Positions 190-46,948 of a stretch of 64,000 nt of DNA are shown in pieces (the stretch's first letter is position 1; each line of letters opens with the position of its first letter). The notes under the pieces are model-generated. The model was not told where the DNA came from. It searched no databases and was given only the letters and a program-made list of their open reading frames with translations. The position numbers were made by a program, and so were the translations under genes. The stretch comes from Nothopassalora personata (Eukaryota > Ascomycota > Dothideomycetes > Mycosphaerellales > Mycosphaerellaceae): NCBI GenBank assembly GCA_033816765.1, contig CM066296.1, positions 1,798,001 to 1,862,000 of the forward strand. Direction: 5' to 3'.

Positions 190-2000
190 TAGGTGTTAAG
201 GCTACTCGTATTAAGGCTTATTATAACGGTAATCTCCTAGTTAAAGTAAAGGACGTACATAATGCGAAGGCTGCTTCTACTATGCCGGAGAGACTATAAT
301 ATAACTAAGCTAAGCGCACTATTCGCATACTCTAGACATACGGTTGTAACGAGCGATATTAGCGCGTACGTAAGGACGATATAATAGGCTAGATACTATC
401 CTTCCTTATAGTAGATCTAACTACTCTTAACTAGTTTCGTAACTACCCTAAGTGTCTATACTTCGACGGTACCTTTCGGACGAATAGCTACTATAAGGAC
501 CTCGTCGATATATATAGCATCACCGGTATAGGTACTACAATCGCGCTCGGCAACTGTCTTATAAATAGTAAGGAGCAGTCTAACTATAAAGAACTACTAA
601 GCTAGATCCGCGATATCGTACTACTTCCGCCTAAGCGTCCAGTACTCGGACAGGGTAAAGAAGACCTCCGTCCGCCTACAATTACGATAGTAGACATAAA
701 GTGTATTATCTCTAACCGCGAGGAGGCATTTCTAAACGTATGTAACGTAGTATTCCCCGAGCTATACTCTATTGTATGTAAATAGCATCTAGCGAAGGAT
801 CTCGTTACTAAACTACGCACTCTAAAGGGCGAGGAATAGTAGTAGGTGTACGACGACGAGAAGAAAGAATAGGTAGAGTCCGAGAGCTACTAGCAGTTTA
901 TGCGTATGTTCTTCTATACTATCTATACTACTAATAAAGTAGACTTCGAATCGTGTCGCTATAAGATAGAATAGACCTATCCGTAGGTAACGAGATATAT
1001 AAACAACAACTAGTAGAAGTATAAGAAGCGTTTTACTAATACCTAGACGAATAGGGTGCTCTACTTCGGTAAGAAAACATTATCGTTATACGAAGGATGC
1101 TATGCGAGGGTAAAGGATTAGCTATATAACTCCTCGCGACACGATATCTATTCGCTGTTCGAGTCTATTATTAACTACTAGTAGGCGTAGAACCGTGTTA
1201 ATCGTTAGACGATTGCACGAGACCTTAGCACTATGCCTATATAGATAGTTAACAAGTTCTAGTCTAGCGTACGAAGAACTATTTACCGATATCCCCTAGT
1301 CGAGTCTTATAAGTTATAGAAGCGTACGAAGGAGTTACGTGCGCGTATAGAGGATAAAGAAGGTAGAGCGCTTACTAAACCGCACTCTACGATTATATAC
1401 GATTACGCCGAGTGCTAGTACGACGATTACCTCGTAGTAAGTAAGGGTAGGCCCTACTTACACTTCTTTATAATATTGGACGAGATAGGCGGCGATTCGA
1501 AGGGTTATCTACTACCTAGGCATTACTATTTATATTACTAGATTTATAGAGTACGCGCTCTAAAGCCTTAACCGTTACTACTGTAAGAGCCTATAGTAGG
1601 TAGACGTAGCAATCTTACGCCGCGGAAACGTGCTAGTAAATAGTTAACTACTCGTACAAAGACACGCAAAGAGCTATCTAATAAGAACTATAAGATACGT
1701 AGGAAACGAGTATAGCGTCGCGTAGTGTTAGGGGCTAAAGACGAGCTAGAAGTCGATATGCCTACTCTAACGTAGAAGGAGCTTCGTACGAAGGCGCTAG
1801 ACGGTATATCGTATAGCTACCGCGGTCCATGTAAAAACCACTAGTATACGTGCTTTAAGAAGTAAAGGAAGTGCGGTGAATAGTATTACCCTAGTAGACA
1901 ATGCCCTAACTACCCGTCTAACGACACGAGCAATAAGGAAAACGAAGAGCTAACTACCGTAGCGATAGTTAATACGGAAGTCGTGGCTATAAGACAACAG
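190..2000 (+). pseudogene. MULE transposase remnant (RIPped)
   Basis: In the frame containing position 606, codons 459-485 read YFDGTFRTN. This matches the segment with the first catalytic Asp of MULE transposases, and it is followed by ITGIGTTIALGNC, the usual 'G.T' strand. Around 660-800 the pattern D-x-K...FLNVCNVVFPE...C-x2-H (TAG at the Trp/Gln position) fits the second catalytic Asp block. Around 1060-1200 comes the FGKKT...YEGCYARVKD...SSRHDI segment that fits the conserved 'FG..T.R.EG.HA.LK..L..S..DL' block of the family. A basic tail and a Cys-containing stretch (1800-1920) follow. Tens of in-frame stops make it non-functional. The family call is from motif recognition only. Confidence 0.6.
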
Positions 2001-2923
2001 TTAGTATAAGTAGAAGAGAGGTTAAGATTATAGTAGGAGTAACTCCTTCATATATAACGAGCGTAGTAGGCATAAGTGTATACGTTACAAAACCCTTAGT
2101 ATATAATAATACACGCTATATAGCCAATTGCCTAGGAATATAGGTAGTATAGACCTTAATAGTATAGCTAGGGCTATGCTTAATCCTAGTATTATAGGTA
2201 CGTTTAGAGGTAATAGTATCACTTCGCGCTACCGGCGCTAGGTCCGCCGTCGCACGAGGTACACGTACGTACTAATATCCCGCCGAGGCAGTAGTATTAT
2301 GCTAGTAATCGTCTATTGTAGTGATTAGAGCGCGTTCTAAGCGCGAATATTCGCGTTAAGGTCGCAACTTAAAGGAGTTCTTAGGCCTCTTATTAGCCGA
2401 TAGATCTAGGGCCGGATTTGAGCGATTTAGAAGTGTGTTAGGAGTTTTATAAGGGGTATTAACGTCGCATTGCGACCGTAGAAGCTAGGTGTGTAATCCT
2501 ATACTTCGCGAATTTTCGTAACATAACGCATCGTAGTATAATGTTTATATTACATAAGCTTTATCTCCTAATGATTCTACGTCGAATGCGCTATCGCATG
2601 TTTTTGTCGGACGTGTTGCGAGGTTAATATAACCTTCGAGGCAAAATCTATGTTCTACTACTATAGTGTTAGACCCTAATTCTTCGTAAGGCTATAAGCA
2701 ATGTAGGGTCGCGCTTTCGCCGAACATTCTTCGTAGCGACATCCACCTTACTGTTACGACTGCATAACACGACATAAGCGACGATATTATAATTTATTAT
2801 ATGTCGCATTAGCTCGGCGAGCAAAATGAACCATATATCGTGTGTTTTAAGCGACTGGCTAATTACATGCAGCGTAGCGATACAGATCGTCGCGAATTTA
2901 AGGGGAAAAGAGGTGTGGCTAGT

Positions 2924-2952
2924 GGGTGTGTCCGGCCGTAGGGTGTGTCCGG
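2924..2952. repeat. Tandem GGGTGTGTCCGG pair
   Basis: The 12-mer occurs at 2924-2935 and again at 2941-2952, separated by CCGTA-like sequence. It marks the change from CG-containing MULE sequence to much more AT-rich DNA and may be part of the element's terminal repeat. TGTCCGG also occurs at 3-9 in the same orientation. Confidence 0.4.
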
Positions 2953-3808
2953 TTTAGCAATTTCCACCTATAGATACTAGACATATAAGGTTAGGAGCTA
3001 AGGAATTTTAAGCTTAGCTTAAAAAGCGCGAAGATAAAATCCTTTGGCCTCTAAGCAGCTTACTTAGCTTATACAATTTTAGATAAGTAGGTAAATTTAT
3101 ATTAAATATAATACGCTATATCTTCTTTTACCTAGTATAGATAATAGACTATGTTAGTATATCGATCTTAAAAGGTTGTCTTTATACTATAATCTCTTCT
3201 AAAGCTATTATTCTTACTTTATAATACTATCTTAGAATACTATAGTAATATAGATAACCTATTCTATTTTAGTTGTTATAATCTAGTGTAATTAGGCTTA
3301 CAATTAGGCTTAAATCCTAAGATCTATTTACTACTAAGTAGTTACGTAACTAGATTAGTTATTTTATTATATCTATTCTTTTTAAGTATATATAGTCTAA
3401 GATAGATATACATAGTATACTATCTACTATAAACCGGTTCTTTAACTAATTAATATATAAGCCTAAGTAATTAAATAATTTAACTAGCTAATTAGCTTAT
3501 TAATTAATACCTATAATGCGTTAGTTATAAGCCTAATAAGTGCTTACTAATTTACTACGTGTATTTAGACTCTTTAAAGTAGACTTTATATTATTATAAA
3601 CTAAACTAATACAATATTATCTTATTCTTTCTAATTAGCTATTATATATCCTAGTATAGTATATCCTAGTAGATCTACGTAGAAACTTCTACTAGAGAAC
3701 CTATTTAATCTAATATAGCTAGTACTAATACATTTAGTATACTAGTACTACTAGTAGGTACTATTATCCTTAAGAGCTATAACTAATAGGATAAATTTAA
3801 CTATTAAT
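2953..3808. other. AT-rich RIPped sequence, target of gypsy-1
   Basis: No gene is visible. The composition is very TA-rich and CG-poor, unlike the MULE before it and gypsy-1 after it. It is continuous with 12479-12987 once gypsy-1 is removed, so it is probably the 5' part of the old copia-type element whose integrase lies at 20.1-21.1 kb. A stretch at about 3471-3525 matches the reverse complement of about 21735-21789 imperfectly. Confidence 0.4.
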
Positions 3809-3813
3809 TAGAG

Positions 3814-4195
3814 TGTTACGGTCTAAGCGCGATGGGCCTAAGGCTCCCCCGCGCTAGCACGTAACGACATTAGGATCCGTGTCTCGTAACATAGTTCCCC
3901 TATATAGAGGATCTGTTGCTCCCTCGATAGACACTATAGACCCTTTAGATCTGTAGGATCTATAGACAGACACTATAGATCTAGATAATGTATTCTTTAT
4001 ATTTAGGAACGTAGCGAAATGCCCTATAGCTTTCGAAGCGTTTAACTTATGTTACAACCTTACTAATTAGAATACACCTATTCTCATTAGTTATTGCCTA
4101 CCTCCTATACCTTGTCTAGTACTCTCTAAAGAAGCCCGATCTACGTAACAGATTATCTCCTTCTATAGTTAGCCTACCTACGGAGGTTTATAACA
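3814..4195 (+). repeat. Gypsy-1 5' LTR
   Basis: It begins TGTTACGGTC and ends TTTATAACA. The copy at 12092-12473 has the same length. The two differ by scattered transitions (for example GATGGGCC against GATAGGCC) because RIP hit each copy independently. Confidence 0.9.
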
Positions 4196-4208
4196 CTTTA
4201 AATGCCCT
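4196..4208 (+). promoter_or_regulatory. Gypsy-1 putative primer-binding/priming region
   Basis: CTTTAAATGCCCT follows directly after the 5' LTR. Gypsy-2 has CTTTAAACGCCCT at the equivalent place, differing by one C/T. Conservation of this position fits a primer site. It does not start with the usual TGG of a tRNA primer site, so the priming mode is unknown. Confidence 0.4.
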
Positions 4209-4279
4209 AAGGATAAGTACTTTATAGACAAGTAACGGAAGGGGAACTCCCGCCCCTAGTAAGGTAGGAGGCAGCCGCC

Positions 4280-5200
4280 TAAGACCTAAGAATCCCGATA
4301 AGATAATTACGTCCGACGACGACGAAGCTAACGACGCTAAGGAAGAAACTAACTTTAAGGTAGCTAAACTAGACTTCTACTTTAGAGACCGAAGCAAGCT
4401 CGACGACTAGCTTAACTAGATAGACATATATATCTTATTCTATAAGAAGTTAGAGGCGGACTAGCGCACGCTGTTTGCCGTTACCTTTCTTAGGGGACGA
4501 GCCTAATACTAGATAAAGCTATATCTTAGGGGCTATCTCGACAGTCGTATAACTAAGGATAAGATCGGAATGTTTAGAAGCTATTCGATCTTTAAGAGAG
4601 AGCTTAAGAAGCTCTTTAGAATTTCTAACGAACAAAACACGGCTATCCGAGAGATTAAAGGAATAACTTAGAAAACTTCAGCAGCCGAGTACGCTACTAA
4701 GTTTAAGAAATACTCGATTATTACGGGATAGAACGACAAATCCTTAGTAGATACATTTAGAGAGGGACTTAAGGACTCCGTTAAGGCCGAGCTTATACGC
4801 TATAGCGGTAGGTAAGACACGCTTAACGACTTAATATAGGCAGCGATTCACCTAGACGACTAGCTATACGAGCTGTACTAGGGAAAGCGGTATACGAGGA
4901 ACCTAGGGAAATCCTTCCGACCTAGTAACAATAGGATCGGATATAGTAGAAGAAACACTAACACTCGGGACCTAGACGCAATAGACTAGGAGAGAACCTT
5001 TAATAACACCGAGCGAGGGAAACTACTAAAGAGACAAGGAAGAAAGGGACCTCCTAACCGAAAGAGTTTCAAAGGAAGTATTACCTACTATACCTATAGT
5101 AAGGAAGGCTATATAGCGAAGAACTACCGCGGAAAGAAAAATATAGTACGCCGCGAGCAATTCAATATAATGCAATAAGGAACTAGTAAACTCGAGAGCA
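4280..5200 (+). pseudogene. Gypsy-1 Gag remnant with a mutated zinc knuckle
   Basis: From about 4370 the frame reads like a retrotransposon Gag capsid (DYFRDRSKLDD, AAEYATKFKKYS, DTFREGLKDSVKAELIRY). The CCHC zinc knuckle is at 5086-5127 but all four ligands are now tyrosine codons: Y-x2-Y-x4-Y-x4-Y where C-x2-C-x4-H-x4-C is expected. TGY to TAY (Cys to Tyr) and CAY to TAY (His to Tyr) are the changes RIP makes. It cannot bind zinc and has many stops. Confidence 0.8.
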
Positions 5201-5209
5201 GTGTTAGAC

Positions 5210-7130
5210 TACTAGGTAGTACCGACTATACTCGAGGAGTAGAGGAGAGGGTCGACGAAAGCGACACACCCCTCCTAGACCTCTCTTAAGGGCGAGGAGG
5301 ATACTATAGTTATATAAACTAACTACGATAGTTTAGAAAGACATACCAGTTCAATGTAATCTAGATAAGGGACGCCTTAGAAAGCTAATAGGTGTCTAGG
5401 AATAAGAGGATCGAGACAGTACGATAACGATTAAAGGATATAATCGAGGCTATTACGGCGACCGAACCTACGGTCCAGCTCTAAGAATAGCTCGATAATA
5501 CGTTACTTGCCCTCGAAAACCTTATAGACACTATATCTATACGTACGGAGGTACGTAACGAAATCTAAGAAGTAGTAAACTAGCTAGAGAACTAAGTAGA
5601 CACCCTAGTAGAGAGGCTCGATCTATAAGAAAGAACACTTAGCATAATAAACACTACCTAACGTCTAGAAACGACCGTAGAGATCGACGAGGCGATAACG
5701 GTCAAACAAGCGGAATAGATGATCCTAGAGAAACTAGAATAGGACCTCTTAGACATCGAGATAAACGAGATACTCGTAAATAATCCTTAGGAACGCCTCT
5801 CGTTAGTACGAGACTAACTCTAGAAGGCAACCGAAGGGGTTAGCGAGTTGCTACTAGTAACGAGAAGCACAGCACTAGAGGACTCCCTCTAAGTAACCTA
5901 CGGGGGACTCGCCTTACGGTGTATATACATTACGATATAACTTAATAAACTCGAGAATAAAACTAGGACGTTTAGAACTACGACACATAGCTATACCTTA
6001 GATTAACTACGACAATTTAAAATGACCTAACGGAACATTCTAATACTACAACTCTAGGGAGAATAGGAGGGACTCCCCCGCGAGGTTATAGAGGACATCT
6101 ACGACTAGAGGGATAATCTTCTAACCGAGCTAGAAATGCGGATCTCTTAGATAAACGAGGAAAACGCACTAGGACGCCTATATTGTATAAAGAACTACCT
6201 ATACTACGCTATAGGCCGGTTAGATATAATTATAACCTAGGTAGAGGAAAGCCGAGTAGCGATAAGGAAGCTTAAGGATACTTACGACTAGCTACGTAGC
6301 CGACGGTGTTACATTATCCGCTAGATCGAGCGATAGCACTATATAATGTAACATAAAGATGCCCTAAGAACATTTAGAATAATAGTAAGAAGAGTTAACT
6401 ACGAGATCGATCGCGATACTCAAAATAGTTACGGAGCCCTTTATTAACGTTTCTATTACTAAGACTCGTGTTAAACCTATTACTCTGCTAAGGAAGGCGT
6501 AGGGTATTTTCTATAGTAACCGTAAGGAACCCTAGGAGCGACATATAGGTAGAATGCTACGCTCCGAGAAATAGATATCGACGAATCCTACTACGACGAT
6601 AGAGACAATAAAGAAAACTAGGACCCCGAGTAGAGCGGATCGTAGTTACTACGACTATAGGAAGAAAATTAAGATACTACCGGGCTAGACACTATCGAAG
6701 AAAGCGAGGATACCGGAGAAGAGTTAGAAGAAGAAGACTCCTCCGAAGAAGAGAGTAGCGAATCTAAGGACGACAATAACATAGTACTTACATTTACGAT
6801 CGACGTACCTAAAGAAGTATACGACCTACTAGTATATATTACGAGACGGAACGAAGAAGTCTTTCTAAGGATATAAGGAAAACGACACCTACATCTAGTA
6901 GAGTTCGATAAGATGCTCGACACTATACGACATATAGTTTAGAGACATCTACGGATTATAGAAGTTAAAGACTTCTACCGAGTAGTCTAGGAGCGACTAC
7001 CGGTAGGCAGTTAGATAATCTACGGAGGATACATTACATCGTCGGGACTTATAGTCCTAGATTTACTACGATAAGCCGTATAATATATAAAGGCTCTCTA
7101 CTTACAATTATAAAGGATCTAGGAACGTAA
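5210..7130 (+). pseudogene. Gypsy-1 Gag-Pol linker region: coiled-coil-like, then acidic
   Basis: About 1.9 kb lies between the zinc knuckle and the protease. At 5450-5900 the plus frame is rich in L, E, I, T and R in heptad-like order, suggesting coiled coil. At 6590-6790 it turns strongly acidic (runs of E, D and S). I do not recognise a family. It is long for a Gag-Pol junction and may be a large Gag C-terminal extension or a separate ORF. Confidence 0.4.
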
Positions 7131-7319
7131 CTAATAAAATGCATAGACACTAAGTGCTTCGCTATAGGTTTAAGCCGAAGCCTTACGACACGAAATGTAA
7201 CATTCTACCCGGCATTTGGGAAAAGGATCGACTCCTTAGGAATAAGCGACTAAAAGGAGTTATATAGCATATAATAAGCTTAAGCATTAATAGTAGTCTT
7301 CCGAATAACAGTAATCGTT

Positions 7320-10300
7320 AATAGTTATAGGACTAGAGTTATAATTAACTCCGGAGCGAGCGGGAACTTTACCTCCGAAGCATTTATAAGAACTAAAGGG
7401 ATCGTAACCTAATAGAAGAACGAAGGTTATAAACTAATCGCGGTAGACGGATTAGCCTTACCTAGCGTAGAACGAGAGACGATACCGTTACTACTAGTAA
7501 TCTAACGGTACTACGAGGAAATTATCTTAGATGTTACTAACATAGCTAGTTATAAGATCGTACTAGGTATACCTTAGTTAAGAAAGTATAATCTAGCTAT
7601 CGACTAGAGAAGAGGAGTACTTACATTTAAGCAATGCGATTGCATTATCGACATTAATCCTACGTAGCGGTAGCGTTCGCTAGTAGATAAGGTAAAGAGA
7701 CAGCTTAATCGAATAGAGCTTACGCCGACTAGAAGGATAGAAGAACTACCTTCGACCGGGATAGACACTAGCGTAGGGCCACCGGGTTATAAAGTCACTA
7801 GAAGTAATAGACTTAACGTACTATCGAAGGATACTAACATTTTAGAGTTAACTATCCCTAAGGAGTACCTTAAATAGAAGAGGCTCTTTAAAGAGGAAAA
7901 GGATAGAGACGCCTTACCTAAGCACTAACTATAGGATTATAAGATAAACATTTAGCTAGGGAAAGAGCCTCTATAGGGACCCCTATATCCAATGTCCGAA
8001 AAAGAGCTAACAACCCTACGAGAATAGCTAAAGGAGAGCCTAGCGAAAGGACGAATACGAAAATCGACCTTAAGGGTAGCATCTCTATATATGTTTATTC
8101 TAAAAGCAAACGGGAAACTACGACTCGTATAAGACTACCGAAAGTTGAACGAGATTACTATTAAGAACCGATATCTACTACCGAACATCGAAGAAGCATA
8201 GGATAGACTAACCGGATTCGACTAGTACACGAAGATTGATTTATAAGACGCCTTCTACACTATCCGTATAGTAGAAGGAGAAGAATAGAAAACCGCATTT
8301 AGGACTCGATACGGACTATACGAGTTCTTAGTTATGCCTTTTAGATTAACTAATGCACTAGCCGCATTCTAAGACCTAATTAACGAGACACTAAGAGAGC
8401 TACTAGACGTATGTGTTATTACCTATATCGACGATATCCTTATCTATATAAAAGGGACACTCTAGTAGCATATACGATAAGTCTAGGACGTACTTAAGCG
8501 ACTATCTAAAATAGGTTTTTAGACGGTACCGAAAAGATACGAGTTCTATAAGAAAGAAGTTAAATTCTTAGGATTTATTATTAGCACGACTAGAATCTAG
8601 ATCGACCTAGCTAATACATAGTCTATTAGAGAATAGCTAGAGCTAACATACGTTAAGGACGTACAATTATTCCTTAGCCTCGCTAACTATAACCGGAAAT
8701 TCATTAAGGACTATTCGAAGACATCGATACCTATAACGATGCTTACGAAGAAGGATACTAAATAGACATAGGGTAGCGCATAACGACTAGCATTCGAACA
8801 ACTAAAGGAATAATGCGCCTTAGCACTAACGCTTCGATTTTTCGACGGTACGAAGGAAGTCTAAATCGAAACGGACGCATTAGATATAGCTATTGGAGTA
8901 TACCTTACGTAAGAGTATAATAGGAAACGATACCTAGTAGCCTACTACTTAAGGAAACTATCACCCGCGGAACAAAACTACGACATCTATAATAAGGAAC
9001 TTCTCGCTATTGTCGCTACAATGTAGCACTAGAGAATATATACGGAAGGAGCACTTAAGCTAACGATTCTTTCTAATTATAAGAATCTCACTTACTTTAC
9101 TACGACTAAACTGCTAATAAGAAGATAGTACCGCTAGTCGGAACTGCTCGGTTAGTACAAGTTCGAAATCCGCTATACACCTAGTAAAGACAATAGTAGG
9201 GCTAACGCACTAAGCCAAAGAAGCAACTATATAGAAGGAAAAGAACTAGTGCAATAACAAATACTGAAGGCGAATCCTAATAGAAGCCTTAGTACTAACA
9301 TAAAGGAGTTTAACAACATAGTACGTGTTCTTTAAGACATAGAAGAACAATTCCTAATAGTATAGGGGAAATACTAGGTACCGAAGGACCGAGAAGAAGA
9401 ATGTATACGATAACATTATAACGGACTAACCTACGGGCACCCCGGAACATCTAAGACGGTAGAACTTATTTAGAGGAGCTTCGTATTCCCGTAGTTACGA
9501 TAGAAGGTACTACGATACATTAAACGATGCGAACACTATTAGAAAAACAAAGCCGCAAGACACGTAAAGTACGGCGAGATACAATTCTAGACACTACTAA
9601 TAAACCTATAGGACGAAGTTACAATAGACTTTATTACTAAGTTACCGACATCCTAGGATTAAACCATAGGACAACAATATAACATAATATTAGTTATAGT
9701 AGATCGACTTATAAAATACGCACACTTTATTCCTACATCTAAAACGTATAATATAGAGTAACTCGGACACCTCGTACTTGATCGACTTGTACAATACTAT
9801 AGATTCCTAAAGGTCTTTATTATAGATAGAGATAAGTTATTTACATCTAACTACTAGAAAACCTTAGTTTCCACGATCGGAATTAAACATAAACTGTCCA
9901 CTACCTACTATCCGTAAACTAATAGGCAAATAGAAAGAATAAATCAAACCCTAGAACAATATCTACGACACTATATTAACTATATATAGGACAATTAGGT
10001 TATACTCCTACCTATAGTATAGTTAGTACTAAATAACTATAAGTCCGAAATAACGGGCGAAACACCTTTCTTCGTAAACTACGGTAAGCATCCGAACCTG
10101 TTTAGCGAAGAAGCATTACATCTATAAGCTAAAAGGGCAATCGCAACTATAGAGGCAATAAGAACTATCTACGAAAACTTAACACGAAGGGTTAAGAGTA
10201 ACTAAGATAGAATTGCGACACTATATAATAAGAAACGATAAATAGCACCTTAGCTTAAGAAGGGGGATAAGGTCTATCTCCTTACAAAGAACCTTAAAAT

Positions 10301-10645
10301 AAGAAGAAAGACTAAGAAACTAGATTAGGTAAAAGTCGGATTATTTCTCGTTAAAGGAACACGAGGACCTATTAACTACCGACTACGGCTACCTAAGGAT
10401 GTAAGGATCTACCTAGTGTTCTACATATTACTATTAGAACCTACGGACGCCGAAACACCTTATTAGGAAACATTCTATTTTAAACCGGAAGTAGAAGACA
10501 AATTTGAGGTCGAAAGGATACTAAATAAGAAGGGTTAGCGATACCTTATTAAGTAGAAAGGATACGACGATTTAGAAAATACCTAGGAACTAAAGGCAAA
10601 CCTTACGAATTGCCGCTAGCTACTAAAAGATTTCTACTACCGCTA
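7320..10645 (+). pseudogene. Gypsy-1 Pol remnant (PR-RT-RH-IN-chromodomain)
   Basis: Protease: INSGASGNF near 7344-7370, where the catalytic Asp of D-S-G is Asn (AAC, 7347-7349), as expected from TG to TA in ATTGAC. RT: KANGKLRLV...DYRKLNEITIKNRY near 8105-8170, and the intact catalytic YIDD at 8424-8435. RNase H: IETDALDIAIGVYLT near 8865-8910. Integrase: NGLTYGHPGTSKT near 9420, TIDFITKLP near 9610, DRLIKYAHFIP near 9700. Chromodomain: EVERILNKKG...GYDDLENT at about 10507-10600. The frame ends near 10645. Many TAG/TAA codons interrupt it. Confidence 0.9.
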
Positions 10646-10738
10646 AGTAGCGGGAGCGCGCCGTTAATAGGTTCCGCTACTACACTATTAAGAAAACCCT
10701 AAAACCTATTATTAGCGAACCTATCTATAGCGCTCCGA

Positions 10739-10816
10739 GTCGTCCTATAGAGAGCGCCTTCACGCGGCGGACGACGTAAGTATCTTCGTTACGACGAAGA
10801 GAAACTAAGACTCTCT
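10739..10816 (+). ncRNA. Candidate HDV-like self-cleaving ribozyme at the 5' end of retroposon copy 1
   Basis: Numbering from the element's first base: P1 is GTCGTCC (1-7) with GGACGAC (31-37), seven perfect pairs. P3 is GCC (18-20) with GGC (28-30) around the 7-nt loop TTCACGC. P2 is AGAGAG (11-16) with CTCTCT (73-78). P4 is a 7-bp hairpin (45-51 with 56-62, loop TACG). The P4-P2 joining strand holds C67-T-A-A, matching the catalytic C-N-A-A of HDV-like ribozymes (C75 in HDV). P1.1 has only one good pair (C23-G38). P1 and P3 fall at nearly the same positions as in HDV. The predicted cleavage lies just before base 1. Folded by hand; activity untested. Confidence 0.65.
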
Positions 10817-11353
10817 CTCTCGAAAAATACAAGCCTACTCGACTCGAAACAAGAAAAGACAGGTCGGACGAACCGAACGAACGAGATACGCTCAAAATCT
10901 ACAAACAAGAACTCCGGAACTGCGAGAAGGGAAAGCGACGTACATAGCGTACACGTCGCTCGAACAACGAAGGCGCTGTCTACCTGTCGTCCCGGCAAAC
11001 CACGTAAACTGCCGGCTGGAACCAAGAGAGGCGTTTAGGGGCGCAAACCACGTATACTGCACGGCTGGAACCAAGAGAGGCCGAGGGGGGGACGACAGCG
11101 AGGCCACTGCGACCGAGGAGCTACACTCGAGACCGGAGAACGCGACTGGATTGAAACAGAGGCAACGGGTGTTTCTTGGGATTTTGCTCGGTGCGTACGG
11201 GTACGGCCGGCTTGGCTTTTTAAAACAAGAACGAGACACGGGCGCAAAACTTGTCTCGCCCGGGGCAAGGCGACAAACCGCAATTCTCGACAAGACACGA
11301 CTACCGGGTACGCGCGTACTACGCCGCAATATATTCGATTTACGGTTCGAATA

Positions 11354-11447
11354 GCGAGCGTTGCTCGCATCTTTTAAGGAGTTTTTACGTCCGGGGTACG
11401 ACGGGGCTTTTCTCCTTCTCTCAAATTTTGGTCTCGTTCTCGAGACC
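11354..11447 (+). other. 3' stem-loops of retroposon copy 1
   Basis: GCGAGC-GTT-GCTCGC at 11354-11368 and GGTCTCG-TTCT-CGAGACC at 11430-11447 are perfect hairpins within 150 nt of the 3' end. LINE-type reverse transcriptases often recognise a 3' stem-loop before a short terminal repeat, so these are candidate recognition structures. The same hairpins lie at 44226-44240 and 44302-44319 in copy 2. Confidence 0.5.
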
Positions 11448-11514
11448 CGTGTTGCATAGTCTTTGACTCAAATAGCACGTTAATGGAATAATCAATCAAT
11501 ATAGCGCTCCGAGT

Positions 11515-12015
11515 TAGAGGACTTAGAGCAAGACCGGAATTAGGTATAGGTTTGAGTAGTAAGCCCTACGCTACTAGCTCCCGATCCGCCGCTTCCTCCT
11601 CCTCGATCTCTCGCTCCTCGAGAGCACGACCCTCCTCTACCTTACGGTCAATAGCATCTAATTGCTTCCGAAGACGCATCTCCTTCGTATACGCCTCTAT
11701 TATTTTCGCTAAAGCCCCCGAAAGAGCCTCCTTCGCACGATCGAGATCGGCTAATAACTTCTTTCGCTAATCCCCGAGCTTTTTCCACTCTACCTTAGTT
11801 ACCTTCGCATCGTACCGCGCTACGTTACTAAGATAGTAATAAGAACACTTTCCGCACGAGATATACATACGGTATACTAGGTTATTCTTCGTACACCGAG
11901 AACAAGGCTTTATAACTTCTTCTCCGAGGCGATAGACGCGGTTTACGCGGTTCTTTCGCTTTTAAGTAGATAACGCGTCTAAGGGCAAGATAAGAGTAGG
12001 AAGAAGAGAAGACAT
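11515..12015 (-). pseudogene. Antisense accessory ORF of gypsy-1: Cys motif plus coiled coil
   Basis: Read from the ATG at 12015-12013 on the minus strand, the frame gives a basic segment, then PCSRCTKNNLVY...SCGKC...RYD. This is C-x2-C-x6-[C/Y]-x5-C-x2-C-x10-[C/Y], with the two Tyr probably RIPped Cys. A long charged coiled coil follows (RKKLLADLDRAKEALSGAL..., about 11560-11770). Only about three in-frame stops interrupt it, in the TAA/TAG class RIP creates. It runs opposite to pol, between the chromodomain and the 3' LTR, and a similar ORF sits at the same place in gypsy-2. It resembles a widespread class of fungal hypothetical proteins; function unknown. Confidence 0.6.
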
Positions 12016-12079
12016 CCTTACCTATAGATAAAGTAGGAAACGTTAAGGTTATAACTAGTCTCGGGACGAGACTAGGCCG

Positions 12080-12091
12080 GAAGGGGGATAG
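12080..12091 (+). promoter_or_regulatory. Gypsy-1 polypurine tract
   Basis: GAAGGGGGATAG lies directly upstream of the 3' LTR, the position and composition expected for the plus-strand primer. Confidence 0.7.
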
Positions 12092-12473
12092 TATTACGGT
12101 CTAAGCGCGATAGGCCTAAGGCTCCCCCGCGCTAGCACGTAACAACATTAGGATCCGTGTCTCGTAACATAGATCCCCTATATAGAGGATCTGTCGCTTC
12201 CTCGATAGACACTATAGACCCTTTAGATCTATAAGATCTATAGATAGACACTATAGATCTAGATAATGTATTCTTTATATTTAGGAACGTAGCAAAATGC
12301 CCTATAGCTTTTAAAGCGTTCAACTTATGTTATAACCTTACTAATTGGAATACACCTATTCTTATTAGTTATTACCTGCCTCCTATACTTTGTCTAGTAC
12401 TCTCTAAAGAAGCCCGATCTACGTAATAGACTATCTCCTTCTACAGTTAGCCTACCTACGGAGGTTTATAACA
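12092..12473 (+). repeat. Gypsy-1 3' LTR
   Basis: 382 bp, the partner of 3814-4195. It starts TATTACGG, the RIPped form of TGTTACGG, and is followed by the target duplication TAGAG. Confidence 0.9.
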
Positions 12474-12478
12474 TAGAG

Positions 12479-12982
12479 CTCTATACTAAATTTCTAAATG
12501 TATAGAAGTATATAGATCCTTACTAATTAGCTACTAAGCTAGTAGAACTAGTACATATATTCTTTAAGGATATCTAATTAGTATATACTATACTAGATGC
12601 TACGGCTATAGGTAGAGAGCTTATTAAGCTATAGTAGTTAAACGTAGATTATAGATAGCGGATGTATAACGTCTTTACTACTATAAGGTCTAAGGTAGTT
12701 ATCTACCTAATTAGAACTATAACTAAGCTAGGCTAAGAGCTTATATATAGTGAATCTATCCTTAGAGCTATGTACTTAGTACTAAAGAGGTAGTATAGAC
12801 TAGATAATATTCTATAAAAGAGATAACTTACACTTAAGCTATCTAGGTATTAAAAGAGATAAGCCTAAAGGATTAATAATTAATCCTTAGATTAGCTAGT
12901 AATATAAGGTAAGATACTTAACTATAACTATACTAAATATAATAATCTTAGTAGGCACTTTCTACTCGCTATATAGAAGTAG
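12479..12982 (+). pseudogene. RIPped fragment of the old copia-type element, middle part
   Basis: The piece lies between gypsy-1 and gypsy-2 and is AT-rich with dense stops. Joined across gypsy-2 it continues into 19998 onward, where a copia integrase is recognisable, so by position it would be gag or early pol. No domain can be named with confidence. Confidence 0.35.
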
Positions 12983-12987
12983 GTACC

Positions 12988-13391
12988 TATTAGGTTTAGT
13001 ATAACCTAATAATATTACAAGTTAAGAAGACAAGCTTAATCGGGTTTGTTCTCGGGCCGATAGGAAGTTAAGGGAGAGTAATAAAGCAGTAGCTGTCTTA
13101 TCTCGTAGAGACTAAGTAGTAGCAAGGTAGAGGTTAGGTAGTAGTATATTCTAAATAGTAATATTGAATAGTAAGTTAAACGCATCGAAACTATAAGGGA
13201 TTCTTAGCGTTCCTAAATATAAAGGAGATTTATAGATCTCGGTAATTAGTCTAATTAGTCTAAGCATAAGTAGTCTAATTAGTCTAAGCATAAGTAGTCT
13301 AATTGCCCTAAGTCTAAGCGCTTAGGTAGGATAAGTTACGTGCTCGTCTCGTTATCGTAATTCTAGGGTCTATAGGAATCATTCCGTAACA
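12988..13391 (-). repeat. Gypsy-2 3' LTR
   Basis: It ends GGAATCATTCCGTAACA on the plus strand (TGTTACGGAATGATTCC as the LTR start on the minus strand). A less damaged relative is the solo LTR at 42501-42883. Confidence 0.9.
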
Positions 13392-13406
13392 CTACCCCCT
13401 TTTTAG
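13392..13406 (-). promoter_or_regulatory. Gypsy-2 polypurine tract
   Basis: On the minus strand AAAAAGGGGGTAG lies directly upstream of the 3' LTR. Confidence 0.7.
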
Positions 13407-13464
13407 CCTAGCTTCGTCCCGAAGCTCTATAAGCCGTTATTCTTTCTTATAGTAATAGTTAACT

Positions 13465-14020
13465 ATGTCTTCTTCCTCCTATAAACGCCGTTAACGACTT
13501 ACTCTAGATACTAAAACCTCTAGTATTGAAATAGCTCTATATACGAATTGTTAGAAGTCTCGATCCTTAGGCGCGGTAGTAAAGTGTATCGTAGGTTCTC
13601 GGTCTAGGAAGTGTTCGGCCTATATTCGAAAAGGCTATAAGGATTACGACGTACGTCTTTCTCGTCCGGAGTAGGAATGTCTTCGCGATTCGCGCGATAA
13701 GCTTAAGCTAGAGCTTAAGAGGATTAAAGAGGAGGAGGTACGGCTAAAGATACATAAGATTCGTCTTCGGAAATAGCTACGCTTAGCTAAGCGTCGTACC
13801 GACGACGCCGTCGCTAAGGAGTTAGAGGAACTCGAGGAGGAAGAGGCGCGTGAGGAGCTAGCGTCTCTTAAGTAGGCGTCGGGGGTAGAGGTGTCGCCTT
13901 CGCTAGTTTCTTTCTCGGATATCCTAGAGATACCCGTAAACGACTAGGCGGCACTCTCTAGGGCGGAGTCCTAGGGTAATTCCATAGGGGTAGAAACTTA
14001 TTAGGGTACTTATTTTATAA
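13465..14020 (+). pseudogene. Antisense accessory ORF of gypsy-2: Cys motif plus coiled coil
   Basis: From the ATG at 13465 the plus strand reads MSSSSYKRR, then YTNC-stop-KSRSLGAVVKC...SRKCSAYIRKGYKDYD, which keeps most of the Cys spacing of the gypsy-1 antisense ORF. A strongly charged coiled coil follows (KLKLELKRIKEEEVRLK, then ELEELEEEEAREEL, about 13690-13870) and an acidic Ser-rich tail. In-frame stops are only TAA/TAG. Gypsy-2 runs on the minus strand, so the ORF is again antisense and sits between pol and the 3' LTR. The end is uncertain. Confidence 0.6.
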
Positions 14021-14044
14021 GTTATGTCCCTATTCCTATTAATC

Positions 14045-14118
14045 GGCTAGGTAGCTTAGTAGTAGAGCGTAAGCTATCTACACTCTTAAGGTCGTAGGTT
14101 CGATTCCTACCCTAGTCG
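14045..14118 (+). tRNA. tRNA-like cloverleaf inside gypsy-2 (probable RIPped tRNA pseudogene)
   Basis: Acceptor GGCTAGG (14045-14051) pairs with CCTAGTC (14111-14117) with one G-T pair, followed by G. The D arm is GCTT-AGTAGTA-GAGC (54-57 with 65-68). The variable loop is AGGTC. The T arm is perfect: GTAGG-TTCGATT-CCTAC (14094-14110). The anticodon arm is poor: TAAG pairs with CTTA around an 11-nt loop (9 if a C-T mismatch is allowed), so no anticodon can be assigned. T-arm and variable-loop sequence resemble eukaryotic tRNA-Lys. It lies between the antisense ORF and the chromodomain of gypsy-2. Confidence 0.6.
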
Positions 14119-14189
14119 CTCGTTAGCCGTAAGATCGATTATTATTAGTCTATCGGCGGACCCATTTGTATTATTGTCTAATCTTTTGC

Positions 14190-17100
14190 TAATATTTTCG
14201 TAGGTGTTGTTTTAGTTCCTAGGTATTTTCTAATTCGTCGTATCCTTTCTACTTAACGTGGTATTACTAACCCTTTTTATCTAGGAATTTTTTAACTTTG
14301 AATTCGTTTTCTACTTCTAGCTCAAAATAGAAGCTTTCTTAGTAAGGTGTTTTAGCGTCCGCGGGTTCTAACTTAGAGATGTAGAAGACTAGGTAGATTT
14401 TTGCGTTAGGTAGTAGCCGTAGACAGTAGTTAACTAGTCCTATAACTTTATCGATAAAAAATGGTCCGACCTTAACGTAATCTAGTTTCTTAGTCTATCT
14501 TCTTATTCTTAAGTTTTTTATAAGGAGATAGACCTTATCCCCCTCTTTTAGTAGAGGTGCTATTTTTCTTATGTCTTACCGTTATTAAGACAGTTTATAT
14601 TATGTATCTTCGATTGCCTTACGTGTTTCTTTATGTACTTCCTTAAGAGTATCCGTCGTTACGATTGCTCTTTCGGCTTATAGGTAGGATCTAGGTGTTC
14701 CGAATAGGTTAGGATCTTTCCTAAAGTTTATATAAAATAGTATCGTTAAAGTTATCTCTAATTTATAGTTGTTTAGTACAATCTGCGCTATTAGCAGTAA
14801 TAAAACCTAGTTGTCTTATACGTAGTTAATGTAGTGTCGTAGATATTGTTCTAGCGTTTAGTTTATCCTTTTAGTTTATCCGTCTGTCTCCGGATAATAT
14901 ACTATTAATAGCTTATGTTTAATTCCGATCGTTCCTATAAGCGTCTTCTAGTAGTTCGATATAAATAGTTTGTCTCTATCCGTTATAAACGCTTAAGGGA
15001 ATCCGTAGTATCGGATAAGTCTATCTAGTACGAGGTATCTAAGCTATTCTACATTGTATGTTTCTAATATAGGAATAAAGTGTACGTATTTTATAAGTCT
15101 ATTAACTATAACTAGTATTATGTTATATAGTTATTTCGTAACTTAATCCCTTAACGGTAGGAGTTTTGTAATAAAGTCTATTATAACTTCGTCCTATGGT
15201 TTCGTCGGTAGTGTTCTAAACTGTAGGTAACCGTATTTTGTATGTCTCGTAGCCTTGTTTCGTTAGTAGTGTACGTATTGTTTAATGTAGCGTAATACCT
15301 TAAGTCTCATTTATAGGAATAAGAAGCTACGTTATATTAGGTCTATTGTCTTTAAAGTTCTAGGGTATCTATAAGTTGGTCCGTCGTAATATTGTCGTAT
15401 ATATTCCTCGTCTCGATCCTTTAGTACTTAGTATTTTCCTTACGATATAGGGAATTGTTCGTCCTTATCGCCTAATATCCGTACGATGTTATTAAATTCT
15501 CTTATGTTAGTACTAAGACTTCCGTCGGGGTTCGTCTTTAGTATTTTATGTTGCACTAGTTCTTTTCCTTCTATATAGTTGCTTCTTCGGCTTAGCGCGT
15601 CGGCGCGGCTATTCTCTCGTCCTAGAGTATATTTAATTTTAAACTTATATTATCCTAGTAGCTCCGACTAGCGGGCTTGCCTTTGGGTAAGTTCTTTCGT
15701 CGTCGTAAAGTACGTAAGATTCTTATAGTTAGAAAGAATCGTTAACTTTAGTAGGCCCTCGACATATACTCTCTAATGTTATATAGTAGCAATAATAGCT
15801 AGAAGCTCTTTATTATAGATATCGTAGTTGTATTCCGCTATAGTTACTTTCCGGGAGTAATAGGCTACTAGGTGTCTCTACCTATCGTATATCTATATAA
15901 AATACGCGCCTATTGCTATATTAGACGCATCGGTCTCGATGTAGACTTCCTTACTACTATCGAATAGTCGAAGCGTAGGGGCTAAAGCGCATTATTCCTT
16001 AAGTTTCTTAAACGCTTTAATCTATTCCTTTCCCTATTTCTAGGTAACGTCTTTTCTCGTAAGTATCGTTATTAGTGCTACTGTCTTTACGTAGTCCTTA
16101 ATGAATTTCCGGTTGTAGTTCGCTAGTCTAAGGAATAATTATACGTCCTTAACTGTTTTTAGTTCTAGCTATTCTCTAATTAACTGTGTCTTCGTAGGGT
16201 CGATTGCTATCCCTATAGTACTAATAATAAAGCCTACGAATTTAACTTCTTTCTTATAGAATTCGCATTTCTCGGGTACTGGTTTAAATCCTAAACGCGT
16301 AAGTCGTTCGAATACGTCCTAGACTTATTTTATATAATTCTAAAGGGATCCTTTCGTATAGACTAATATGTCGTCTATATAAGCGATAACGTATACATCG
16401 AGTAGGTCTCTAAGTGTCTCGTTAATAAGGTCCTAATAGGATGCGGGTACGTTAGTTAATTCTATTAGTATAACTAAGAATTCGTAAAGTCCGTATCTTG
16501 TTCTAAAAGCGGTTTTCTATTCTTCTCCTTCCGCTATCCGTATAGCGTAGAAGGCATCTCGTAGGTTAATCTTCGTATACTAGTCTAATCCAGTTAATCT
16601 ATCTTATACTTCTTCGATGTTAGGTAGCGGGTATTAGTTCTTAATCGTAATCTCGTTTAACTTCCTATAGTCTTATACGAGTCGTAACTTCCCGTTTACT
16701 TTTAGAACGAACATATATAGAGTTCCTATACTTAAGGTAGATCTTCTTATCTATCCTTTAGCTAGCTTCTCCTTTAGCTATTCTCGTAGGGTCTATAGCT
16801 CTTTCTTAGACATTTAGTATAGGGGTCCCTATAGAGGCTCTTTCCCTAGCTAAATGTTTATCTTATAATCCTATAGTTAGTACTTAGGTAAGGTATCCTT
16901 ACCTCTTTCCTCTTTAAAGAGTCGCGACTACTTACGATACTCCTTAGGAATACTTAACTCTAAGATGTTAGTATTCTTCGATAGTGCGTTACTTTAATTA
17001 CTACTAGTAACTTCGTAACCCGGCGGCCCTACGCTAGTATCTATCCCGGTCAAAGGTAGTTCTTCTATCCTTCTAGTCGGCGTAAGCTATATCTCGTTTA

Positions 17101-17600
17101 GCTATTTCCTTACCTTATCTACTAGTAAACGCTACTACTACGTAGGCTAAATGTCGATAACGTAATCGCATTCCCTAAATGTAAGTACTCCTCTTCTCTA
17201 GTTGATAACTAGATTATGCTTTCTTAACTAAGGTATACCTAATACGATATTATAACTAGCTATGTCGGTAACATCTAAGATAATTTCCTCGTAGTACCGT
17301 TAGATAGCAAGTAGTAGCGGTATCGTCTCGCGCTCTATACTAGGTAATGATAATCCGTCTACCGCGATTAATTTATAACCCTCTTTCTTCTTATAGGTAG
17401 CGATCCTATGTCTTATAATAAATAATTCGGAGGTAAAGTTCCCGCTTACTCCGGAATCTATTATAGCATCTATCTTATACCCGTTAACGATAATCTTAGT
17501 TCAAAATACTATTATCGTTAGTAATGCTTAAGCCTTTTCTATATCGTATAACTCCCTTCGGTCGCTTATTCCTAGGGAGTTAATCCTTTTCCCTATTCGT
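14190..17600 (-). pseudogene. Gypsy-2 Pol remnant (PR-RT-RH-IN-chromodomain)
   Basis: The catalytic YIDDILVY is intact on the minus strand (YIDD codons at 16381-16370), in the same frame as RT sequence between 17000 and 16300. RNase H and integrase follow toward lower coordinates. The chromodomain at about 14310-14200 reads ENEFKVKKFLDKKG...KGYDELENT, close to that of gypsy-1. Stops are mostly TAG. Confidence 0.85.
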
Positions 17601-18599
17601 ATATAGAACGTCGTACTTCGTGTCTCGAGGCCTCCGCTTAAATCTAGCGCGGGCCTTTCTATATCCGCACCTTTATTTAGTAACATTCCTAGACCTTCTA
17701 CGTTTCTAAGTAGAGTGCGCGTACGTGTTACACTACGTTACGTAATTTATTTAATATAAATGTTCCTAACGGTATAAGGTATCCGGTTCCTATTATTCGG
17801 CTCCCTATCGGTAGTCGTTCTATAATAGCGGTTACTGAATTCTCGGTTGTTTCTATAAGTAGGTATCCCTAGGCTATGCCTCGTAGGGTATCGAGTGTCT
17901 TATTAAACTTAATAGAGTGTAGCATTCTTCGTCCGCCTATCTTAGGTAGAAATTCTTCGTGCCTTCTTTATAGGTGTACGATTATATTATATAATTTCTT
18001 AGGTACATTAATCGTAAAGGTTAGTTCTTTATTATTATCGTTAGTATCGCTCTCTTCTCCTTCGGAGGAATCTTCTTCGCTTAATCCTTCCGGATCCTAA
18101 TCTTCCTCGATAGTATCTAGCCCGGTAGTTTCTTAACTTTCTTCCTATAGTTCTAGTAACTACGATCCGTTCTATCCTAGGTCTTAGGTTTCTCTATCGC
18201 TTCTATTATCGTTAAAGTAGAATTCGTCGATGTCTACTTCTCGGAGCGTAGCGCTTTACCTATACGTTGCTCCTAGGGTTCCTCTTAGTTACTAAGGCTA
18301 ATACCCTACGCCTAATTTCGCGGCGTAGTAAACTTAATACGAGTCTTAGTAACAGAATCGCTAATAAAGGCTTCTATAACTATTTCGAGATTTAGATTCA
18401 ACCTCGTAATCGACTCTTCGTACTATTATATTAAACTGTTATAGTTGGTTCTTCGCATTAAATAGAATAACTACTATTTACTACCTATAGTATCCTCCTC
18501 GTCCTTCTAAGGGGTCTAGGAGAGACGTCGTGCTTCTATTACTAGCTCTCTCCCCTACTCTCCGAGTATAGTCGGTATCTCCTCGTAATCTAACGCTAC

Positions 18600-19570
18600 T
18601 CTTAGATTTACTAGTTCGGGGTTGTATTATGTTAAACTGTTCGCGGCGTACTATATTCTTACCGCGGTAGTCCCTTACTAGGTAGCTAGGTTTACTATAT
18701 CCGTAGTAAGTTCGTGTTTCTTTTGAACTCCGGGATGCTCTATTCCCGTTACTATTCCTAATCTTACGACCTTTCTTAGTAACGTCGAGCTCTATTAGCT
18801 ATAGTCCGTAGTATAGTTTGTCCCTAGGCTTATTATTATAGTTGTCGTAGAAGCCTCTATTACGGTTATCGTAGCCTAGTATATATCTAGCCTTTCCGGA
18901 TACCTTAGAGTCGTATCGTCGTTCTATAGCTCTCTCGTAGAGCTTATCGTTAAGATTAATCGTAACTCTAACGAGGTCGCCTAAGCTATCGATCTTCCGA
19001 CCGTCCCTTATTAACTCGTCCTTAATATGCTCCTTTAGTCCTCTTCGGTACATAACTTAAAGTGCTTCGTCGTCCTAATCGGTAAGTTACGCGTATTCCT
19101 AGAATTTAGTAGCATATTCGGTAGTAGATGTCTTCTAGGTTAAATGCTAAATAATACGAACGGTAGTAGCGATCTTATTAGAGATACTAAAGACGCTCTT
19201 TATAGCATACTTAAGATAGTTATATAACCTAAAGATTCCGTCGACATTGTCTTCTCCGTTACTATCTAGGTATTTCCTAAGGAATAGCTTAACCTAATGC
19301 TATGCTCGTCCTCTTAAGAAGGTAGTAGTAAAGATAGGCTTAAAGTTATTAGCTATAGAGTTAAATAAGAAGTATATATCTATCTAAGAGACCTAAGTGT
19401 CGAACTTGTCTCGGTCACTATAGTAGTATTCTAGCTTACTAACCTTAAGGGTGTCGTTGCCTATATAAGTAGCTAAGGCATTAATAGCATCGTTCGCGAT
19501 CTAAGGTCGTCGGGCTCTACTTACTTTACTAGGGGCGGGTATTCCCCGTTTACTCTATTGGTCTTCTATC
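18600..19570 (-). pseudogene. Gypsy-2 Gag remnant
   Basis: The longest open piece (19053-18799) reads MYRRGLKEHIKDELIRDG...LVRVTINLNDKLYERAIERR, which matches the Retrotrans_gag pattern (FREGLKDSVKAEL...AIHLDDQLYE in gypsy-1). A basic, Tyr- and Asn-rich region follows. The acidic stretch at 18,060-18,130 corresponds to the acidic linker of gypsy-1, but the linker is about 0.9 kb shorter here. Confidence 0.7.
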
Positions 19571-19574
19571 GTAG

Positions 19575-19587
19575 AGGGCGTTTAAAG
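19575..19587 (-). promoter_or_regulatory. Gypsy-2 putative primer-binding/priming region
   Basis: CTTTAAACGCCCT on the minus strand lies next to the 5' LTR, the counterpart of CTTTAAATGCCCT in gypsy-1. Confidence 0.4.
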
Positions 19588-19588
19588 C

Positions 19589-19992
19589 TATTAGGTTTAG
19601 TATAACCTAATAATATTGTAAGTTAAGAAGATAAGCTTAATCGGGTTTGTTCTTAGGCTAATAGGAAGTTAAGGGAGAGTAATAAAGTAGTAGCTATCTT
19701 GTCTCGTAGAGACTAAGTAGTAGTAAGGTAGAGGTTAGGTAGTAGTGTATTCTAAATAGTAATATTAAATAGTAAGTTAAACGTATCGAAACTATAAGGG
19801 ATTCTTAGCGTTCCTAAATACAAAGGAGATTTATAGATCTCGGTAATTAGTCTAATTAGTCTAAGCATAAGTAGTCTAATTAGTCTAAGCATAAGTAGTC
19901 TAATCGCCCTAAGTCTAAGCGCTTAGGTAGGATAAGTTACGTGCTCGTCTCGTTATCGTAATTCTAGGGTCCATAGGAATCATTCCGTAACA
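19589..19992 (-). repeat. Gypsy-2 5' LTR
   Basis: 404 bp, nearly the same as 12988-13391, and followed by the target duplication GTACC. Confidence 0.9.
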
Positions 19993-19997
19993 GTACC

Positions 19998-21960
19998 TAG
20001 TTACGGAGACTCTCTATATAATAAGTAGAAGCTTAACTAGGACTATCTAAGCTTACTAAGTAATATCTTAAGTAGATATACAATATTGTACTAACGTACT
20101 AATCTACCTTTATAATCTTTACTAATAAATTCTCTACTAAAGCAGAACTAGTAGAACCTACTAAGTAATAAGAGGACGGGTAAATAGATAAAACTCCTAT
20201 ATAGGGTAAAAAGAGTAACACACCTAAATTAACAAAAGTAGTCCGAAGATCCTATTTACTATCTATTATAGAGTATATAGTTTAGCTAAAGCCTATAAAG
20301 TAAAGAATAGAATATAGTCTATTAGATTAATTAGACTCTATAGTTATATAGCTATAGACTTAGCTAAATTTAAGCTACCTATAATAGTAACTAATAGCTA
20401 GTCTACTTCTATAATCTAGAGACCTATAGATACTTCTAGTTTACTACTAAAATGAGAACTAATAGTTAGTCCTATCTTACTTTAATAATCTATTAAGATT
20501 TATTAACTTTATAGAGCGTAGGATTATTTACTTCTATAGTAATAATACGTTAGCTATTAGTACAATCTTCTACTTAGTAATAAATAGTAATAATATTACT
20601 TAGTGACCTACTTTAGATTATAGTCTATAGTAGGATCTAGTAGAGACAGGTAGTACTCTTATTATTACTATAGTACGTACAATATAGATCTATACTAATA
20701 TACCTAAGAAGTTATAGCTAGAGTATATAGTAGTAGTATACTATATTCTCTAGAGATTACTAATCTTATTAAAAGAATAGAAAAAACTCTTCCAGTTAGT
20801 AATAGATTATATACTAAACGTTAAGTATATAGTAGTATATAGGTACCTAGCCTCTATATAGCCTAAATTAGTCTAGTAAGACTAAGAAGCTTAAGGAGCG
20901 AGTTTTTATTAGATGTCTAGTTAGGTACGACTCTACTAATATCTATTAAATATAGGATCTATCTAGAAATAGGATTATTAGGATAAAGAAAGTACTCTTT
21001 AAAAAGACTACGTTCTATAACCTATCTATATTAATAGTAGGATCTACTACGCCTATTAAAGATATAGTAATAGTAGAACCGGCTAAAGAGCCTAAATGAT
21101 ACTATAATCTATATATAGCTTACTACGAGATAGTATAGGCTAAGGGGGTAGAAGAGCTAGCTTATTAGTAGCCTATATACTAAAACCCTCGTAATTAGGT
21201 AGAAGAATAGGCCTAGCCTACCTATTAAAAATACACCTATTAGTAAAGGTTATACTAAACCTAATATCTACCTATCTACCTATCTACCTATCTACCTATC
21301 TACCTATCTACCTATCTACCTATCTACCTATCTACCTATCTACCTATCTACCTATCTACCTATCTACCTATCTTCCTATATACCTAGAGTAGCTAAGTTA
21401 TTCTTATTATACTAGTAACTTTAGTATATAACTATTCTATCTACTAGAAGATATATAAGGTTATAGGTTTAAGTTATAAGAGTAAAATCTATTATATCTA
21501 TTATTAGTCTACTTAAATATAAGTACTAAGAGAATATAGTATAATCTAAGTATAGTTAGACTATAGTCTATTAAATTTAAGGTATTAGCTACTAAGAGTT
21601 AGGTAACTTCAATTAGTAACCTATAATTATTTTATTTATAGTATTTTTAACTCTAAAAAATATATATAATTTACTATTTACTTTAAGTGTACCTAATAAA
21701 TAAACCTAAATTAAGTAATTCTAATTGATCTACTAGTAACGTGTTATAAGTATTAATTAGTTAGCTAATTATTTAGTTAAATTATTTAGATACTAGGTAT
21801 AGGTTCTCAGTCTCTAATAGGTAGTATAGGCTTAATCTATAAGCTTAAGGTAGACATTAGTTAGCTTAGTTAGATACTACGAGAGTATAGATAAGACGAA
21901 GGTAATATTAGAACGAGTATATATAGCCGTAAAGTTAAGAGATCTAATATAGTATTAAAC
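19998..21960 (+). mobile_element. Old copia-type element, integrase part and 3' end, RIPped
   Basis: Around 20,890-21,010 the plus frame reads KERVFIRCLVRYDSTNIYQIQ...NRIIRIKKVLF, the C-terminal integrase segment of Ty1/copia elements (usually 'GYDSTNIYRIW...NRVIR.RDV.F'). Upstream DNA (20,100-20,880) is consistent with the integrase core. No RT or RNase H is seen downstream, where an 8-bp tandem repeat and AT-rich DNA follow, so the element appears truncated or decayed beyond reading. Gypsy-1 and gypsy-2 both inserted into it. Confidence 0.55.
21269..21372. repeat. Tandem repeat (TACCTATC)13
   Basis: Thirteen perfect 8-bp units, downstream of the copia integrase remnant. Unit identity means it expanded after RIP or carries no RIP target: it contains no CA or TG. 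Confidence 0.9.

Positions 21961-46822: not shown

Positions 46823-46948
<126 letters not shown>

Follow-up and report, generated by a model that had tools for sequence, protein, structure and literature searches.

The copies of a short fungal retroposon begin, time after time, at the same nucleotide, and the question that this locus raises is what sets that 5' end. The window (the whole 64,000-nt stretch of DNA analysed here) holds two identical copies of the element, with different target-site duplications (Table 1). In a search of the 54.5-Mb genome (40 contigs), the 40 matches that were scored, from 460 candidates, were all 100% identical over the 761 nt, and the first 24 nt of the element are matched exactly at 272 places. 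A query decayed at CpA in silico, intended for older copies, returned copies at 93% in its 40 scored matches (394 candidates). The preliminary description had placed a predicted cleavage site at the element boundary, and the two do coincide: among 32 copies, all chosen for matching from nt 1, the duplication ends exactly at nt 1 in 27 (12-14 nt in 26, 6 nt in one), stops 1 nt short in two, and is absent in three. The duplication of the window copy carries a 1-nt ambiguity, a G being next on both sides, which is settled by the other copies.

We found that a 78-nt HDV-like double pseudoknot starts at exactly nt 1 of the 761-nt retroposon, with P1, P2, P3, L3, P4 and C67 all lying where the preliminary description had drawn them. 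The best explanation, to which we give a probability of about 0.83, is that the element is headed by an HDV-like ribozyme; from this reading we infer cleavage, read-through transcription and dependence on a LINE.

Table 1. Features of the retroposon and its predicted ribozyme head, in window coordinates.
Feature	Position	Strand	Basis or remark
5' target-site duplication, TATAGCGCTCCGA	10726-10738	+	repeated at 11500-11512
Non-autonomous retroposon, 761 nt	10739-11499	+	genome matches, target-site duplications
Predicted HDV-like ribozyme head, 78 nt	10739-10816	+	descriptor, covariation, core conservation, sub-threshold Rfam matches
P1 5' strand, GTCGTCC	10739-10745	+	predicted cleavage just before 10739
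P2 5' strand, AGAGAG	10749-10754	+	
P3 5' strand, GCC	10756-10758	+	
L3 loop, TTCACGC (RNA UUCACGC)	10759-10765	+	core conservation
P3 3' strand, GGC	10766-10768	+	
P1 3' strand, GGACGAC	10769-10775	+	
J1/4, GTAAGTA; G38 pairs with C23 in P1.1	10776-10782	+	same sequence in 34/51 heads
P4 hairpin	10783-10800	+	strands 10783-10789/10794-10800, UACG loop
Candidate catalytic C67, in J4/2 CUAA	10805	+	conservation
P2 3' strand, CTCTCT	10811-10816	+	
3' end common to LINE, AATC-type tail	11445-11499	+	55-nt alignment with L051, L053 and L054
3' target-site duplication	11500-11512	+	repeat of 10726-10738
Second identical copy, own 14-nt duplication TCTAGAATAATAGT	43611-44371	+	window comparison, target-site duplication

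The window copies have the helices of an HDV-like ribozyme, namely a P1 of 6-7 bp abutting the predicted cleavage site, a P3 adjoining P1, a P2 pseudoknot and a P4, together with an A and the candidate catalytic C in J4/2 and a C and a G in L3; many decayed relatives lack parts of this helical set. Four unpaired purines precede C67. Dimension ranges have been compiled for R2 ribozymes, in which J1/4 is 0-2 nt according to the available part of PMC3774820; the 7-nt J1/4 of the fungal head lies outside that range. The acknowledged weak point was P1.1, and it is indeed short: the window copy has C23-G38 as its sole canonical pair, and U occupies position 23 in 42 of 51 heads, which leaves P1.1 with one G-U. 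This may be less serious than it looked, because the accessible text of PMC4908430 allows P1.1 of one or two pairs in HDV-like ribozymes and because the fungal head resembles the CPEB3 ribozyme in L3 and J1/4. The CPEB3 consensus in Rfam has L3 UUCACGU, identical in the relative L072 and 6/7 in the window copy, and its J1/4 opens, on our reading of the alignment, with GU as in the fungal head. Further inside the element lie two tandem repeats of ~44 nt at 10990-11095 (AAACCACGTA.ACTG...GGCTGGAACCAAGAGAGGC), enclosed by a 10-bp stem, CTGTCGTCCC/GGGACGACAG, whose arms repeat the P1 strand sequences; this stem could compete with P1. The hairpin region 10975-11105 is not unusual in stability (z -0.43).

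The specificity of the fold was gauged with a strict descriptor (P1 of 7 and P3 of 3 Watson-Crick pairs, P2 of 6, P4 of at least 5 bp, and CNA[AG] before the 3' strand of P2), which was set after the candidate had been seen. Its sole matches on either strand of the window fall at 10739 and 43611, where nt 1 of each copy lies. In dinucleotide shuffles there were 47 matches in 245,120,000 strand positions, or 1.9e-7 per position, from which 0.025 matches per window are expected. Over 642,762 strand-bases of loci, its other non-canonical matches are the heads of L064, L090, L103, L108 and L112, and it matches at nt 1 in 6 of 68 diverged loci. A G-U-tolerant version matches at nt 1 in 16 of 50 diverged heads; in the 64-kb scan it had no discriminating power, with 36 window matches vs ~32 expected. 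The head pattern gave no match in viral contigs. Single-sequence minimum-free-energy folding was discarded as a test of the head, since it cannot show pseudoknots: in the fold it returns, P2 does not form and C67 is taken up by a 3-bp extension of P4. Taken by itself, the nested part has an unremarkable stability (z -0.74), matched by 48 of 200 shuffles.

Covariance models gave a divided answer. HDV-type models, a check proposed in the preliminary description, match in full or partial register but with scores below threshold, and Rfam at its gathering cut-offs gives no ribozyme match in the window. The HDV-F-prausnitzii model (RF02682) begins at nt 1, at 19.9 bits in the window copy and 19.8 bits in L103 vs a cut-off of 44, and shares with the head its P1 length and the pattern of P3 and L3; its alignment keeps the register of the fold only in this 5' part, over P1, P3 and L3, and falls out of it in the 3' part. 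The CPEB3 ribozyme model (RF00622), which Rfam names as a mammalian ribozyme and which is no transposon head, aligns with L072 and keeps register all the way between P1 and the J4/2 C, C67, with L3 included, at 19.4 bits vs a cut-off of 35. HDV_ribozyme (RF00094) gave no match up to E 10, so that none of the three models reaches its gathering cut-off (19.4-19.9 bits vs 35-44). With E-values of 0.13-2.3, these scores come to about half of what the cut-offs demand. Unrelated families score similarly, CRISPR-DR32 with 21.9 bits in the scan that gave the 19.9-bit match and snoZ178 with 20 bits in the scan of relatives. Five of the seven relatives scanned (L064, L069, L071, L074 and L090) had no HDV-type match.

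The comparison of heads began from 72 related loci (L055-L126), with exclusion-pattern searches reaching the diverged ones, and ended with 51 aligned by MAFFT: the window copy and 50 relatives, most of the sample coming from diverged relatives. Left out were L087-L089 and L091, which have no head match; L082, which reads CCAAG and so misses the J4/2 motif; L059, L062, L065, L076, L096 and L098, whose 5' ends are lost or replaced; the canonical L080; L108, a duplicate of L103; and nine loci sharing the duplicated insertion of L114. Nearly the same upstream flank is present at the heads of L102, L105-L107, L114, L115, L119, L121, L123 and L125, which are probably one insertion spread inside another repeat. 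The search patterns had partly fixed the core, one of them fixing J4/2 and the 3' strand of P2 and three fixing most of L3, and U68 and A69 were required at extraction, a requirement passed by 68 of 69 heads (all but L082). Position 67 is C in 47 heads, T in three and G in one, and it is C in 22 of the 26 heads where the search pattern had left it free. In L3, A24 and G26 are present in 51/51 heads and C25 in 48/51; in the seven heads with L3 free of the search pattern, the counts are 7/7, 7/7 and 4/7.

Across the 51 heads, 88.1% of cells in the proposed helices can pair, vs 40-58% in slid versions; P1 pairs 5-7 were excluded from the count because MAFFT shifts them. The covariation score is 0.275 vs 0.195 in shuffled alignments, with 0 of 500 shuffles reaching it, and the numbers of paired and of doubly changed cells likewise lie above all 500; two of the five measures fall within the shuffles (pairs with a double change, 441/500; pair types, 372/500), which themselves ignore the relatedness of the heads. 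RNAalifold gives no P1 on these heads and predicts only P4 and a shifted P3-like helix. Among individual pairs, 2-36 of P1 varies between U-A and C-G (10 of 51 rows) outside CpG/CpA decay contexts; 47-60 of P4 shows a double transversion, U-A/A-U (11 of 51 rows), for which decay gives no explanation; and 45-62 of P4 changes on both sides in the canonical lineage (C-G/U-A in 8 rows, 19 unpaired), again beyond what decay would give. The outermost P2 pair, 11-78, is G-C in 17 heads, G-U in 10, A-U in six and unpaired in 18, and its covariation is convincing in the canonical lineage only, where decay likewise fails to account for the A-U form. Changes at 3-35, 4-34 and 49-58 were discounted, because CpG decay that strikes the two strands can pass for compensation, and 46-61 of P4 was rejected, since CpA/TpG decay of C-A/T-G from an L072-like form yields T-A. 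The events are thus a handful, and inherited. Because the P2 core is nearly constant and the search patterns prescribed part of it, the case for the pseudoknot draws on one outer pair and on conservation. The check for covariation in P1 and P2 nevertheless came out in favour of the ribozyme, with few events, P1 changing on both sides at 2-36 and P2 at its outer pair in one lineage.

Position, fold, core and the compensatory changes in P1, in P4 and, in one lineage, in the outer P2 pair thus all support the HDV-like reading, against which three others can be set. The head might not cleave at all but serve, as a conserved structured RNA or 5' UTR, in protein binding or RNA protection, with a transcription start at nt 1 setting the 5' end. 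Covariation in P1 and P4 is expected of any structured RNA, and the weak P1.1, the long J1/4 and the pairing of C67 in the minimum-free-energy fold all sit comfortably with such a role. This account fails to predict that P2, CUAA and the core of L3 keep the HDV register, or that HDV-type models appear, at the right register, among the weak Rfam matches; we consider it unlikely.

Far less probable still is that the head acts as a promoter at the DNA level and that its fold is incidental. The trypanosomatid Pr77 gives this idea some precedent, being described as a promoter (PMC4748587, PMC8190864) and as a ribozyme (PMC4035085) in the available portions of these papers, and the families seen have kept the head at their 5' ends, but compensating changes in P1 and P4 would be unexpected of a promoter. 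A double role of the head, as ribozyme and promoter, may nonetheless apply. Equally hard to credit is a chance fold whose covariation stems from CpG/CpA decay on both strands and from common descent. Decay can indeed produce the changes at 3-35, 4-34, 49-58 and 46-61, and the G-U-tolerant descriptor is unspecific; against this stand the rarity of strict matches in shuffles and their placement exactly at nt 1, the double transversion at 47-60 and the change at 2-36 outside decay contexts. The HDV-like ribozyme therefore remains the preferred reading.

The machinery for mobility probably comes from a resident LINE, as suggested by a shared 3' end. Over its last 55 nt the element matches the 3' end of the LINE at 94.5% identity (L051 and L053) or 92.7% (L054), with no such match in L052, and a LINE-tail pattern excluding the retroposon's base at one site occurs at 13 places in the genome. 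L051 has an intact ORF of 1110 aa with endonuclease and RVT_1 domains. In the intact LINE (L051-L054), this 1110-aa ORF and one of 431 aa overlap. The LINE copies differ from each other just upstream of their common 5' part, unlike the short element with its precise 5' ends. A model of the head, run on the LINE of L051-L054, detected none there, its best hit (12.3 bits, E 1.9) lying outside the LINE.

Transcription of a copy would come by read-through from a promoter upstream of the element, and the nascent RNA would fold into P1-P3-P1.1-P4 and P2. By analogy with HDV and R2, C67 would act as the general acid in a cut just before G1, freeing from the read-through transcript a product RNA that starts at nt 1, so that the ribozyme would set the 5' end. 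The LINE endonuclease/reverse transcriptase would then recognize the common 55-nt 3' end and AATC tail and make a new copy with a target duplication of 12-14 bp, the anatomy of which is seen in the genome. If this is true, a SINE-like element can manage without its own promoter, and the precise 5' ends of the copies are explained. Neither tRNA genes nor Pol III RNA families were found in the element (tRNA search; Rfam up to E 10), and it lacks the Pol III-type head (tRNA, 5S or 7SL) of a classical SINE; a B-box-like GGTTCGAAT, seen by eye at 11344-11352, ~600 nt from the 5' end, means that the 761-nt element may, formally, contain a Pol III promoter.

The head is a part common to several short families with differing bodies. 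In BLAST comparison of 11 loci with nt 101-632 of the window copy, the body was matched only in L064, L085 and L086, and the 3' end of the element (beyond nt 706) is also matched in 16 of 22 loci of 911 nt, two of the 16 being near-canonical. By eye, family-B loci such as L056 and L057 have short stretches resembling the repeats at 10990-11095, and in L064 a target-site duplication, with one mismatch, adjoins nt 1. The evidence is evenly poised on whether these families constitute a class of short, dispersed fungal retroposons that share a transferable ribozyme head and a LINE-type 3' end and parasitize a head-less LINE, with the lone head of L074 possibly domesticated. L074 (G000:C9:1445112-1446022, minus strand) has an intact-looking head with similarity over only ~87 nt and no retroposon body. 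About 260 nt further downstream there is a host-like reading frame, at least 178 codons long and still open where the locus ends; from this arrangement a domesticated ribozyme is possible. Many of the decayed heads lie on one contig, at about 0.46-1.3 Mb (G000:C6).

Elements of this architecture are known from Drosophila and trypanosomatids. As described in the available text of PMC3414825, the R2 and R2/R1 hybrid SIDEs of Drosophila, whose cleavage was shown in vitro, are likewise short and non-autonomous, with a 5' HDV-like ribozyme and a LINE 3' end, and the R2/R1 hybrids have 14-bp target duplications, like the fungal 12-14 nt. They differ in residing in rDNA with a ribozyme derived from R2, whereas the fungal copies are dispersed and no head-bearing LINE was seen among the LINE copies examined. 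The fungal element has the parts of a SIDE (5' ribozyme, LINE 3' end and target-site duplications), the ribozyme being here a fold and not an activity. In trypanosomatids, NARTc/NARTco and SIDER carry ribozymes, and NARTc, RIME and SIDER are similarly short, with the ~77-nt HDV-like ribozyme Pr77 at their 5' ends; the LINEs of that system (L1Tc/ingi) carry Pr77 as well, to judge from the portion of PMC4035085 available, in contrast to the four copies of the fungal LINE. Theta ribozymes are the subject of PMC10879173, as far as its accessible part indicates.

In view of these parallels the architecture itself is known, and the new points, as far as could be checked, are the fungal host, the dispersal and a head that was not seen in four copies of the probable mobilizing LINE. 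We know of no fungal case of a ribozyme-headed short element. A literature search of narrow reach likewise listed no title on a fungal HDV-like ribozyme, which weakly supports absence from print. If the reading is true, ribozyme-headed short retroposons extend to fungi, and the hundreds of near-identical natural copies, with the diverged families, offer test material for HDV-like ribozymes. The origin of the head becomes a question in its own right, as the LINE that is probably the mobilizing element was not seen to carry it.

The repeats around the element, at window positions 1-20000 and 44400-64000, show a strong CpA/TpG depletion, as repeat-induced point mutation (RIP) would leave. Observed/expected ratios are 0.16-0.51 in AT-rich stretches, compared with 0.70 and 0.55 in the 761-nt retroposon, which is less depleted and perhaps too short to be a RIP target. 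A protein encoded in the window shares 76% identity with a Dothistroma septosporum protein, so the host is probably a member of the Mycosphaerellaceae. The window also contains a tRNA gene (14045-14118, plus strand).
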